Part shown: positions 25,206-63,318 of the stretch, in pieces | Position numbering within the stretch: the first letter of the stretch is position 1 | How the letters are laid out: every line of letters begins with the position of its first letter | Assembly (NCBI GenBank): GCA_016926735.1 | Contig: JAFGOA010000080.1 | Coordinates: forward strand, 1 to 64,000 | From: Promethearchaeota archaeon | GTDB taxonomy: Archaea; Asgardarchaeota; Lokiarchaeia; Sigyniarchaeales; SOKP01 | Direction: 5' to 3' | Length of the DNA stretch: 64,000 nucleotides | Notes under the pieces: generated by a model | Seen by the model: only the letters and a program-made list of their open reading frames with translations | Database searches by the model: none | What the model was told of the DNA's origin: nothing | Made by a program: the position numbers and the translations under genes

Positions 25206-25925
25206 TTGACAAGAAAAAGCTATAAGAATAAAGGACTGAAGCAAAATATCGTTATTTCTCTTGCTGGAGCACATGGAGTAGGAAAAACGACTATTTTTTA
25301 TCTATTAAAAAAAGAAGTTATCGATAATCCTAAATTTAAATTTTTTCCTGAAAGATATAAAAAAAATCCTCCTTTTCCATTTGGATCAAAAAATAAACAA
25401 ATAGCTTTTCGATCAGAAATTCATTTTTTACAACAACTTATTAAAAGAAATAAAAATATTATCAATTATGATCAAAACTATAATGGCCGCATAGTTATTC
25501 TTGATAGAACGCCTTTATGTGTTTTAATCTATTCAAAAGGTCTTTTTCTTAAAGAAAAGGATTATAACCTCATCAAGGATATGTATAATTCTGTTTCATG
25601 GAGAGAAGATTATATTGTATATTTAACAGCAGAGCCAGAAACTATTCTAAAAAGAACAATTCAAAGAGGATCATTAGAAACAATAAGAAAAGAATGGAAT
25701 GAAACTGAAATGAATTATCTTAAAAATATTCTTACGTTTTATCAGCAAATGTTAATAATAAAACAACAGGAAAAAAAACTTTTTATAATAGATACTGAAA
25801 ATGAAAGTCCTCAAAATATAGTAGAAAAACTGAAAAATATTATCACAGAAATAACACACTATTCATTTAAAAAATGTCTTGCTTCTCCTTCTTGGCAAAT
25901 GAATTTGTCTAAATTTTTAAATTGA
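25206..25925 (+). CDS. P-loop nucleoside/nucleotide kinase-like protein
   Basis: A 239-aa protein starting at TTG 25206, with the Walker A motif SLAGAHGVGKTTIF at residues about 19-32. A conserved DRTPLCVLIYSKG segment near residue 97 is equivalent to the DR(T/S) substrate-site motif of deoxynucleoside and thymidylate kinases. LTAEPETILKRTIQRG near 140 resembles the LID-proximal segment with conserved Arg residues. The overall order matches the dTMP-kinase-like/AAA ATPase group; the substrate is not readable. The C-terminus extends with a Ser/Trp-rich short tail. It lies 87 bases upstream of the roadblock protein on the same strand. Confidence 0.75.
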   Translation: MTRKSYKNKGLKQNIVISLAGAHGVGKTTIFYLLKKEVIDNPKFKFFPERYKKNPPFPFGSKNKQIAFRSEIHFLQQLIKRNKNIINYDQNYNGRIVILDRTPLCVLIYSKGLFLKEKDYNLIKDMYNSVSWREDYIVYLTAEPETILKRTIQRGSLETIRKEWNETEMNYLKNILTFYQQMLIIKQQEKKLFIIDTENESPQNIVEKLKNIITEITHYSFKKCLASPSWQMNLSKFLN

Positions 25926-60372: not shown

Positions 60373-60485
60373 AAATTGGTTCTATCATGTAATTACTTTA
60401 AATCATTCCTAAATTTTTATATATTCAAAATAACTATTTTTTATTAAAAGAATTTTATTATTAGATATATCTGATATAATAAATT

Positions 60486-62393
60486 ATGAATTCCGACAAA
60501 ATCCCTAAACTTTTAGAGAGATATCTCAAAATAATTGGAAAAAAAACTAGGTTAGATATATTAAAATCATTAAGTAACAAAGATAATGCATTAACTTTTT
60601 CTGATATTCAGAAAGAAATATTTAATTTGGAAAATGGGAATATAAATCTTTCATTTCATTTAAATGCATTAAAGAAATTAGAACTTATAGAAACATCTCA
60701 ATCTGGGTATTCGATCTCAAATCTTGGTAAAGATATTCTTAAGAAGATTCTTGAAATTGAACAAACTTTAAACCATTTTAATAAATGTCTCTTGATTAGA
60801 ACCTCAAAATATATAACTGAACCCTTTGACTCTAAGAAAATTAATAATTTTCTCATTAAAGAAGCTGGTATGGAATCCTTTTTAGCCAAAAAAATTTCTA
60901 ATTTAGTACAAAATAAACTTTCAAAAACAAAGATAAAATATCTAACTTCACCTTTATTGAGAGAATATATAAATGGTATTCTTTTAGAGGAGGGATTAGA
61001 AGAATTTAGACATAAATTAACTAGATTGGGCGTACCACCTTATGATACAAATATTTTTTTTCAAAATAATTCATTAGATCCAGAATTATTTATAAAACGT
61101 ATGGGTTCTGAAGTATCAGAACAATTTCTTTTACTAAATCTTTTGCCAAATAATCTTGCAGATCTCTATCTTTCAAAAAAAATTATTTTAAAATTTTTGG
61201 ATTATTGGGCTTTAAGGCCTTTAAGCGTTTTTATCCAATTAAAAACCCTATTTAAATATTTAACAGATAACAATAACTCAGTCTATAATTTTGAAAATTT
61301 CTTCGAAGATAATCTTTATATGAAATTTAATACCAAACTACAGCATATCCTGAATTTAATATCTCCTTTTTTTTCAGATAATATATTTTTATTTAATAAT
61401 GAAGATCTAAATGAAAATATCTATAATGATGGGAAAAAAATAGATATATTTTTTAGTTCATTAGTATCTCAAATTAATATTTTTAACCAATTTAATAATT
61501 TTCCAAAAATAAATATTGGAATTAGTTATAATTATTCATCAATTGTTCAAATTATTAAGAAATTATTATCATTTGATTATTTATTAGAAACTAATCCTCT
61601 TATTTTTTATTTAGATCACTCCGAATTATATAATACAAATATATTTACCGAGATAACCCGTAATCCTTTAATATTAAAACACATAAATAAAATTGTATTC
61701 CAAATTGTACAAAAAAAATCAAATTCTTTAATTCTACCAAATCCTAATATAGAAAATGCTCAAAATTCGAATAGAATAGTTCTGGATAAAATTTTAATCA
61801 ATTTAAATCAAATTGCACAAGAAGCAAAAACAAATGATAATATTTTTTTTGAGATTTTGGAAGATCGTTTGAATTCAACATTTTCCTTGTTTGAATTCAA
61901 AGAAGACCTGATCCAAAAAAAAATAGGAAATTCAAAAACGTGGAGAATTATCATAGAAAATTTAATTCAAAATGATTTAAGTAATTGGATAAAGAAAACA
62001 ATAAAATCAATTAGTTTTATTGGTTTAAATGATGCTGTGCTGAACCATTGTGGATTAGAAATAGATAAGATTGAACAGAGTGAATCATTTGCTTGTAGCA
62101 TTCTTGAATTTATGAAAAAAAAAATAATTGAAAAAAACAATTTCGATAATAACATGTATTGTCTATCTCAACCCTCAATAGAATTTGGTTCATCTGATTA
62201 TGATTTAATTAGGCAAGATTCTAATTTACCACTTGAAAACAAAATAATTTTATTTAAAAAAATAAGTCAATTTATTGATGATGGGGCAGTATTTAATGTA
62301 AATTTAAAACCTGATGAAGAAGATCAAATTATACCTGTATCTAAAATAATAATAGATTCAAATATAAATAGGTTTAAATTTAATTTAAAATAG
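60486..62393 (+). CDS. Winged-helix / ATP-cone / NrdD-like protein lacking the glycyl-radical site
   Basis: A 635-aa protein. Residues 1-95 are an ArsR-like winged helix (KTRLDILKSLSNKDNALTFS, ISFHLNALKKLELIETS-type recognition). Residues about 105-190 match an ATP-cone (YITEPFDSKKINNFLIKEAG, LTSPLLREYINGILLEEGLE, HKLTRLGVPPYD). The remainder resembles anaerobic ribonucleotide reductase NrdD: VLDKILINLNQIAQEAK, FIGLNDAVLNHCG (511-523), MYCLSQPSIEFGSSDYDL, GAVFNVNL. The C-terminal glycyl-radical motif (R-V-x-G-Y) and the zinc Cys pairs are absent and the protein simply ends, so it cannot perform radical catalysis. Most likely a nucleotide-sensing transcription factor, analogous to bacterial NrdR; inference. 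Confidence 0.78.
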   Translation: MNSDKIPKLLERYLKIIGKKTRLDILKSLSNKDNALTFSDIQKEIFNLENGNINLSFHLNALKKLELIETSQSGYSISNLGKDILKKILEIEQTLNHFNKCLLIRTSKYITEPFDSKKINNFLIKEAGMESFLAKKISNLVQNKLSKTKIKYLTSPLLREYINGILLEEGLEEFRHKLTRLGVPPYDTNIFFQNNSLDPELFIKRMGSEVSEQFLLLNLLPNNLADLYLSKKIILKFLDYWALRPLSVFIQLKTLFKYLTDNNNSVYNFENFFEDNLYMKFNTKLQHILNLISPFFSDNIFLFNNEDLNENIYNDGKKIDIFFSSLVSQINIFNQFNNFPKINIGISYNYSSIVQIIKKLLSFDYLLETNPLIFYLDHSELYNTNIFTEITRNPLILKHINKIVFQIVQKKSNSLILPNPNIENAQNSNRIVLDKILINLNQIAQEAKTNDNIFFEILEDRLNSTFSLFEFKEDLIQKKIGNSKTWRIIIENLIQNDLSNWIKKTIKSISFIGLNDAVLNHCGLEIDKIEQSESFACSILEFMKKKIIEKNNFDNNMYCLSQPSIEFGSSDYDLIRQDSNLPLENKIILFKKISQFIDDGAVFNVNLKPDEEDQIIPVSKIIIDSNINRFKFNLK

Positions 62394-62397
62394 AAAA

Positions 62398-63318
62398 TTA
62401 TTCTTTTAAAATTTCTGCTAAAATAGCTTGTCTCATTTTTAATCCATAAAATGTTTGCTTAAAATAAATAGCTTTTTTTGAATTATCAATATCTGTAGAT
62501 ATTTCATTAATTCTTGGTAAAGGATGTAATAATTTGAAGTTTTCTTTCGTTTGCGATAGATCTTTTTTAGTAAATATGTAAAAATTCTTAACTCTTTCAT
62601 ATTCTTCTAGATCAGCAAATCTTTCTTTTTGTATTCTTGTTATATATAGAACATCCAAATCATCTAAAATCCGTCTATAATCTGTAATCTCTTTAAATTT
62701 AAATCCTCTATAATGAAATAAATAATCTTTATATCTATTTCGCATTCTTAATTCTTCTGGACTAATAAAATAAAGTCCAATATTATATCGAGATAATAAA
62801 ATTGCTAGTGAATGAACTGTTCTTCCATATTTTAGATCTCCCATAATTCCTATATTTAATCCATCTAATTTCCCTAATTCTTCTTTAATTGTAAAAATAT
62901 CTAACAGTGCTTGTGTAGGATGCTCTTTACTTCCAGAACCCGCATTAATTATTGGAATATTAGAAAACCTTGCTGCCATCTTAGCAGAACCTTCACTAGA
63001 ATGGCGAATTACTATACAATCACTATAATTCTCTACTGTCCTAATAGTATCTGCTAAACTTTCACCTTTCTTTATAGATGATACATCCCCCGATTGGAAA
63101 CCAATAATGTTCCCCCCTAATCGAAGCATAGCTGATTCAAAACTTAATCTTGTTCTTGTGGATGGTTCAAAGAATAAAGTAGCTAAGATTTTTCCCTTTA
63201 AAATAGTTGAATCTTTAACTTTCAACATTTCATGTGCTTTTTTTAATAGATGATCTATATCTTCTCTATCAAAATCACGAGCACTTATTATCCCATCCTT
63301 AAATTTCTCCTTAAACAT
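62398..63318 (-). CDS. pyrB: Aspartate carbamoyltransferase catalytic subunit (PyrB)
   Basis: Catalyses carbamoyl phosphate + aspartate to carbamoyl aspartate in pyrimidine synthesis. It is 306 aa. Carbamoyl-phosphate site: FFEPSTRTRLSFESA near residue 50; GSGSKEHPTQALLD near 127; aspartate site and domain 2 with GDLKYGRTVHSL; and LLHPLPRINEI near 265. No regulatory subunit gene (pyrI) is next to it. A TATA box (63354-63364, minus strand) and a perfect 16-bp palindrome just upstream of it suggest controlled expression. It is convergent with the NrdD-like regulator gene (4 bases between stops). Confidence 0.95.
   Translation of the reverse strand: MFKEKFKDGIISARDFDREDIDHLLKKAHEMLKVKDSTILKGKILATLFFEPSTRTRLSFESAMLRLGGNIIGFQSGDVSSIKKGESLADTIRTVENYSDCIVIRHSSEGSAKMAARFSNIPIINAGSGSKEHPTQALLDIFTIKEELGKLDGLNIGIMGDLKYGRTVHSLAILLSRYNIGLYFISPEELRMRNRYKDYLFHYRGFKFKEITDYRRILDDLDVLYITRIQKERFADLEEYERVKNFYIFTKKDLSQTKENFKLLHPLPRINEISTDIDNSKKAIYFKQTFYGLKMRQAILAEILKE

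Follow-up and report, generated by a model that had tools for sequence, protein, structure and literature searches.

A predicted regulator of ribonucleotide reductase genes derived from an inactivated class III reductase in Asgard archaea and Bathyarchaeota

Close to the 3′ end of the window (the whole 64,000-nucleotide stretch of Lokiarchaeal DNA analysed here) lies a gene whose predicted product joins a winged helix and a putative ATP-cone to the body of a class III ribonucleotide reductase (RNR), NrdD, and which converges with pyrB (Table 1). This domain order had been proposed in a first-pass annotation made from the DNA letters, and Pfam matches together with the predicted model confirm it. 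In the N-terminal head, the Pfam families DUF7347 (34.6 bits, cut-off 27.6) and HTH_5/ArsR (22.2 bits, cut-off 22) jointly cover residues 14–88, and a family profile of residues 1–254 matches CadC, ArsR and HlyU by sequence with a best E value of 8e-5. The winged helix modelled alone reached a pLDDT of 89.8; because Foldseek returned no match for it at E ≤ 0.001, with many winged helices just above this threshold, its family assignment rests on the sequence profiles. The putative ATP-cone scored 18.6 bits with PF03477 at residues 105–173, under the cut-off of 25.8. The model aligns with ATP-cone-bearing NrdD chains, and within the region R105, T106, S107, E112, F114, Y152, T154, P156, R159, E160, R175, T179 and R180 are invariant in all 62 rows of alignment A2, which holds the window protein and 61 of the best 80 loci described below, 19 having been omitted as truncated, masked or near copies.

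Table 1. Features of the predicted regulator gene and its neighbour, in positions of the window
Feature	Position	Strand	Basis
Coding sequence, 635 aa, ATG start: winged helix, ATP-cone and inactive NrdD body	60486..62393	+	ORF list, Pfam/NCBIfam, model
Winged helix of ArsR type, extended by a long helix at its C-terminal end, residues 1–100	60486..60785	+	HTH_5, DUF7347, family profile
Putative ATP-cone, residues 103–185	60792..61040	+	PF03477 below cut-off, conserved residues, model alignment
Predicted NrdD barrel lacking the catalytic Cys, the zinc ribbon and the glycyl-radical domain, residues 200–635	61083..62390	+	Pfam, model
Ser247, where NrdD has its first catalytic Cys (Cys184 of the G012 enzyme)	61224..61226	+	alignment
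Candidate operator CCGACAAAAT, codons 3–6	60493..60502	+	motif comparison
TATA-like box TTTTTATAT, 79 bp 5′ of the candidate operator	60414..60422	+	promoter reading
pyrB, aspartate carbamoyltransferase, convergent, 4 bp from the regulator gene	62398..63318	-	Pfam, ORF list

The C-terminal part is matched by NRDD (PF13597) at 57.9 bits (cut-off 26.2) over residues 427–561 only, a match that by itself would lead an annotator to mislabel the gene as an RNR. With the NCBIfam NrdD model TIGR02487 the score was 53 bits, where the equivalog cut-off is 326, and the protein is therefore related to NrdD without being called one. The model of the whole protein, predicted from alignment A2, has a mean pLDDT of 82.5, and a Foldseek search of the PDB placed class III reductases on top, led by P. 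copri NrdD (8p2c, E 3.1e-15). In a second structural alignment, residues 200–634 superposed on 8p27 with a Z score of 26.5 and 3.5 Å over 415 residues, and the top 21 rows were all NrdD. Residues 200–635 are thus predicted to have the NrdD fold, as the first reading of this body had it.

True NrdD enzymes of relatives (n = 13) carry two invariant cysteines, numbered 184 and 392 in the G012 enzyme, and end in two CxxC pairs and an RxxGY motif; Cys184, Cys392 and the radical-loop glycine were equated, partly via alignment, with Cys171, Cys416 and Gly711 of P. copri NrdD (PMC11226230, available in part). The window protein has four cysteines (101, 522, 537 and 559), none of them at a catalytic or zinc position, with serine at the first catalytic site and no cysteine near the second, and its C terminus stops short of the zinc ribbon and glycyl-radical domain. 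Throughout alignment A2 the same losses recur: the first catalytic cysteine is missing in 62/62 rows, the second column holds cysteine in 0/62, RxxGY is found in 0/62, and the radical-loop tyrosine is missing in 62/62 with the glycine kept in 6. The zinc cysteine columns are retained in 14–17 of the 62 rows, and the NxN flap and HxH substrate motif are lost or mostly lost in the relatives. In the Bathyarchaeal rows L161, L170, L171 and L174 a cysteine stands a few columns from the second (thiyl) site; it may be the counterpart of the second catalytic cysteine, misplaced by the alignment. No separate glycyl-radical piece was found when the host genome, which is 99.3% complete, was searched with an NrdD profile at E ≤ 1e-5; only the window gene matched, and the same search does pick up isolated C-terminal pieces in other genomes. 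One of these, an 87-aa frame at G015:C28:22813-23043, matches only the C-terminal part of NrdD (profile 506–580) and would be either a spare part or a relic. The absence of radical-site residues and the origin as an ex-enzyme, both claimed in the first-pass annotation, hold on the evidence of sequence, fold and tree.

An initial scan of a genome contig collection with the single protein as query gave no match; a further scan of the collection confirmed 316 relatives, and the loci of the best 80 of these were analysed. They come from Lokiarchaeia, Freyarchaeota, Jordarchaeia, Baldrarchaeum, Helarchaeota and Bathyarchaeota. The window protein itself has matches at E 1e-5 in 52/58 related genomes, many of these rows covering the ATP-cone or NrdD only, and the profile of the first 254 residues has full-length matches (from model position ≤10 to ≥240) in 28/89 Asgard genomes. 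A tree built from 58 rows after trimming off the winged helix placed all 34 family members together beyond a branch supported at 100/100; L167 and L158 had long branches. The regulator family thus appears to have arisen once, from a class III reductase, and to span Asgard archaea and Bathyarchaeota. An archaeal solution using the enzyme body had been suggested at the outset; its enzymatic ancestry stands, and instead of one archaeon's invention it is a single-origin family. Values of dN/dS lay between 0.11 and 0.37 across 18 pairs, some with a common member, so these are taken to be working genes kept by purifying selection; by region, residues 1–200 gave 0.06–0.20 and the remainder 0.13–0.53 over the 18 pairs. 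An NrdD match over the cut-off is also present in 17/18 Bathyarchaeal, Jordarchaeal and similar genomes carrying the regulator gene, and a true nrdD directly adjoins that gene in L161 and L158.

Within Lokiarchaeia, two more NrdD lines have decayed, groups B (91/87) and D (100/100) of the tree. Family f1 has a second NrdD-like line of 544–625 aa (L051, L052, L062, L064, L067, L070, L071, L080, L091 and L092; 7/10 in the 58-row tree) with an ATP-cone, lacking winged helix, zinc ribbon and radical loop, and with no exact copy of the motif described below within 200 bp upstream. NrdD-like proteins of family f2 (L078, L079 and L083) have lost the catalytic cysteines and carry Asp or Asn in place of the radical glycine, and proteins of 144–187 aa at L047:3526-3960, L048, L087, L088, L089 and L085 consist of an ATP-cone and little more.

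The upstream sequences of Lokiarchaeal regulator genes revealed the element CCGACAAAA, which mostly overlaps codons 3–6 and marks 55/56 of these genes, the window's included. The motif lies between −60 and +40 of the start in 50/56 and is reversed upstream (−87 or −119) in 5 more; the remaining gene has CCGACAGAA. The motif is a DNA-level signal: its Asp codon is GAC, which makes up only 19% of Asp codons elsewhere in the regulator genes, and in L136 and L141 it precedes the start codon, out of frame, at a retained spacing of 79 bp. A forward motif is present in 51 regulator genes, of which 47 have a good TATA box; in 34 of these 47, among them the window gene (TATA at 60414, motif at 60493), the motif starts 79 bp 3′ of the TATA box, and this distance is kept in L136, L141, L109 and L115 although the distances to the start codon differ. 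The motif is present at the regulator gene in genus g13 of family f2 and in f3, with a one-mismatch form in g10. There was no match at the regulator gene in g15 (L037 and L042, where it is also missing before pyrB, which precedes the regulator gene there), in f5–f7, in Jordarchaeia, or, apart from L171, in any Bathyarchaeal gene read. A comparison of regulator and nrdD promoters across 11 Bathyarchaeal genomes gave no common word beyond shuffles; one candidate pair in G068 was set aside, being coding sequence before nrdD by the look of L222 and L224. These lineages would need a different operator; outside f1–f3 the motif is mostly missing.

The same motif is found at the genes of the real enzyme. 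CCGACRAAA occurs in 22/26 nrdD promoters of families f1 and f3, and 24/26 come within one mismatch. A first set from both families had it in 14/17, at 58–117 bp 5′ of the start, with 16/17 within one mismatch of CCGACAAAAW, and held-out f1 promoters in 8/9. The held-out set comprised 9 of 19 stretches; the others were repeats of known promoters (L212, L213), a stretch without upstream sequence (L211), stretches with no N-terminal NrdD match (L199, L205, L206, L207, L210) and f4 controls (L208, L209). In a de novo count, the motif was the top excess 10-mer, ahead of the TATA box, in 14/17 non-redundant nrdD promoters against a mean of 0.03 in 30 base shuffles. Among the 20 of 26 promoters used for spacing, the TATA-to-motif distance was 72 bp in 14 and 80 bp in two, a constancy which ties the position of the motif to the promoter. 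The nrdD loci are syntenic, and their promoters are therefore not independent.

Background and negative cases delimit this signal. Among other genes at the loci, the exact 10-mer occurred in 0/726 on the same strand from −130 to +20 (9 within one mismatch) and in 0/696 on either strand from −200 to 0 (25/696 within one mismatch). The motif was missing, even at one mismatch, from the nrdD promoters of G028 and G023, and also from six nrdD promoters outside f1–f3 (L050, L074, L077, L084, L158, L161) and from the promoters of two distant nrdD genes of family f4, in incomplete genomes without a regulator match; eight PF02867 RNR loci (L093–L100) had no exact copy. Genome-wide, the 10-base pattern was not in excess in the host genome (15 sites against 22 for the reversed control), where the 14 other sites showed no nucleotide gene by eye, nor consistently in six other genomes. 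The motif alone is thus unable to list targets, and a genome-wide regulon drawn from it was dropped. A supposed cut-off nrdD behind a motif near the end of contig C108 was likewise rejected, there being no open frame. At L068:4228-6102 (G018) and L069:623-2497 (G004), NrdD-like genes each share a contig with the PLP decarboxylase gene that neighbours nrdD; they have kept the putative operator (−84) and lost the radical domain, and are seemingly decaying nrdD genes. A gene for a MazG-type nucleotide pyrophosphohydrolase lies directly 3′ of nrdD at L065:6999-7316 (+).

The first-pass annotation had pointed to the true nrdD elsewhere in the genome as the place to look for binding sites. That gene is gone: in the host genome and a congener (L258, L259) nrdD has been cleanly lost at the syntenic locus, where the genes that flank it elsewhere (PAN ATPase, TGT_PUA, NAC, MazG and PLP decarboxylase) are contiguous. 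The sites themselves are found at the nrdD promoters of relatives, as given above, and at the genes of a class II enzyme. The host genome has neither a true NrdD nor a PF02867 match, and the notion of an 'RNR-less' archaeon was entertained and withdrawn, as TIGR02505 matches a class II monomeric-type RNR in 7/7 apparently RNR-less genomes (G004, G007, G018 and G027 lying outside this comparison), in 6/7 above the cut-off and below it for the host's copy, which is cut by the contig start. PF02867 missed these RNRs in all seven Lokiarchaeal genomes and alone is therefore no basis for claiming RNR absence. In the host genome and its congener the class II frames measure 1338 aa (cut, on contig C105 of G000) and 1666 aa (in G001), with room for an insert. 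A deoxynucleoside-kinase-like gene in the window at 25254-25856 (+) has a match in 19/20 genomes tested.

The class II promoters have the motif within one mismatch in 6/6 cases, exact in 3, on the reverse strand and 84–178 bp upstream, in an intergenic region common to a divergent gene. The divergent neighbour differs between genomes (by eye an ABC ATPase, a transporter-like protein or another membrane protein), which favours the reductase gene as the target. The six cases span three genera only and are therefore not independent, and no constant TATA-to-motif spacing was seen. In the host genome, the class II gene runs off its contig with its promoter beyond the contig end, so the target site there is unreadable. 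Taken together, one motif, the candidate operator CCGACAAAA, is common to the regulator gene and to the promoters of nrdD or the class II gene that replaces it in families f1–f3.

Because one short DNA motif is shared by the regulator gene and RNR genes, control of the real enzyme's genes is probable. We put at roughly 0.75 the probability that the window protein regulates transcription of RNR genes as an archaeal counterpart of NrdR, and that it arose a single time, out of a class III reductase. Briefly, the winged helix would bind CCGACAAAA, probably as a dimer held together by the NrdD body, and the ATP-cone would discriminate between ATP and dATP; when dATP is plentiful, the protein would block transcription of the reductase gene and of its own. 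With the motif some 72–80 bp 3′ of the TATA box, the site is probably within the transcribed region, which would fit a roadblock repressor; the usual archaeal promoter spacing would put the motif start near +40 to +48.

A different protein could in principle read CCGACAAAA, the dead NrdD being itself only a member of the regulon and adjusting the living reductase through protein contact, for instance in a mixed dimer. A common motif speaks for co-regulation and says nothing about which protein binds it, and the NrdD body and ATP-cone have indeed been kept. This is nevertheless unlikely, given that the protein has its own conserved ArsR-type winged helix, and that it is retained, with dN/dS 0.114 for the pair L163/L176 (G046, G050), where the genomes encode a class II enzyme and neither an NrdD match nor an NrdD partner was found.

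A main role in pyrimidine control was considered in view of the pyrB neighbour, whose adjacency had been pointed out from the start and is both real and conserved: a pyrB homologue is near 66 of the best 80 of 316 related genes, from Bathyarchaeota to Lokiarchaeia, and in L158, L163 and L176 it flips to a place directly upstream on the same strand, 1–4 bp away. However, the motif is present within one mismatch in 0/62 pyrB promoters, and in most Lokiarchaeia the two genes have no common promoter since they only converge at their 3′ ends, which makes this role improbable. Very improbable is a motif that works as an RNA feature or as a conserved protein start (residues SDK) instead of an operator; its overlap with codons 3–6 in most Lokiarchaeia would suit this, but its orientation is reversed at five regulator genes and also, if one mismatch is allowed, at six class II genes; in L136 and L141 it stands ahead of the start codon, it lies well upstream of nrdD, and it keeps a constant distance to the TATA box.

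Compared with known systems, the predicted regulator would correspond in role to NrdR, a protein of about 150 aa composed of a zinc ribbon and an ATP-cone. It differs in having an ArsR-type winged helix in place of the zinc ribbon (its first Cys is residue 101), an entire NrdD barrel and another box. As described in the available part of PMC9110341, NrdR carries an ATP-cone as presumed nucleotide sensor, the role proposed here for the putative ATP-cone; like the predicted operator, its box marks its own gene as well as RNR promoters of more than one class, and NrdR is said there to be rare in archaea. With NrdD it shares the barrel, a clear fold match, and the putative ATP-cone (PMC11226230, in part). 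It departs from NrdD in lacking the catalytic cysteines and glycyl-radical loop and in its added winged helix. That winged-helix head, predicted to bind DNA, is shared with ArsR/SmtB regulators such as CadC and HlyU; the window protein has no metal-binding cysteine cluster (no Cys in residues 1–100), a cluster which is not universal among ArsR-type members, and is fused to the body of a nucleotide enzyme. Bacillus PurR follows the same design principle, a nucleotide enzyme without activity (here a phosphoribosyltransferase) that carries a winged helix at its N terminus, but it belongs to another enzyme family and pathway and is bacterial. The large RNR subunits of herpesviruses are catalytically dead too, but they are class I and viral, and we know of none acting as a DNA-binding regulator. 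In the open-licence literature, including the accessible portions of PMC9531940 and PMC9669993, no description of a winged-helix NrdD regulator was found; PMC12770985, as far as available, deals with primases.

On balance, a broader history is also probable, in which inactivation of a class III RNR gave rise, a single time and long ago, to an archaeal regulator that now controls the RNR gene in use in each lineage. After Lokiarchaeal NrdD was swapped for the class II enzyme, the operator would have appeared at the new gene, leaving the corpse of the old enzyme to govern its replacement. The separately decayed NrdD lines of the same archaea are available for comparison. Little is known of how archaea control the supply of DNA precursors, for which a candidate regulator, a 9-base putative operator and predicted targets are now given; if the reading is true, a transcription factor has been made from RNR itself.
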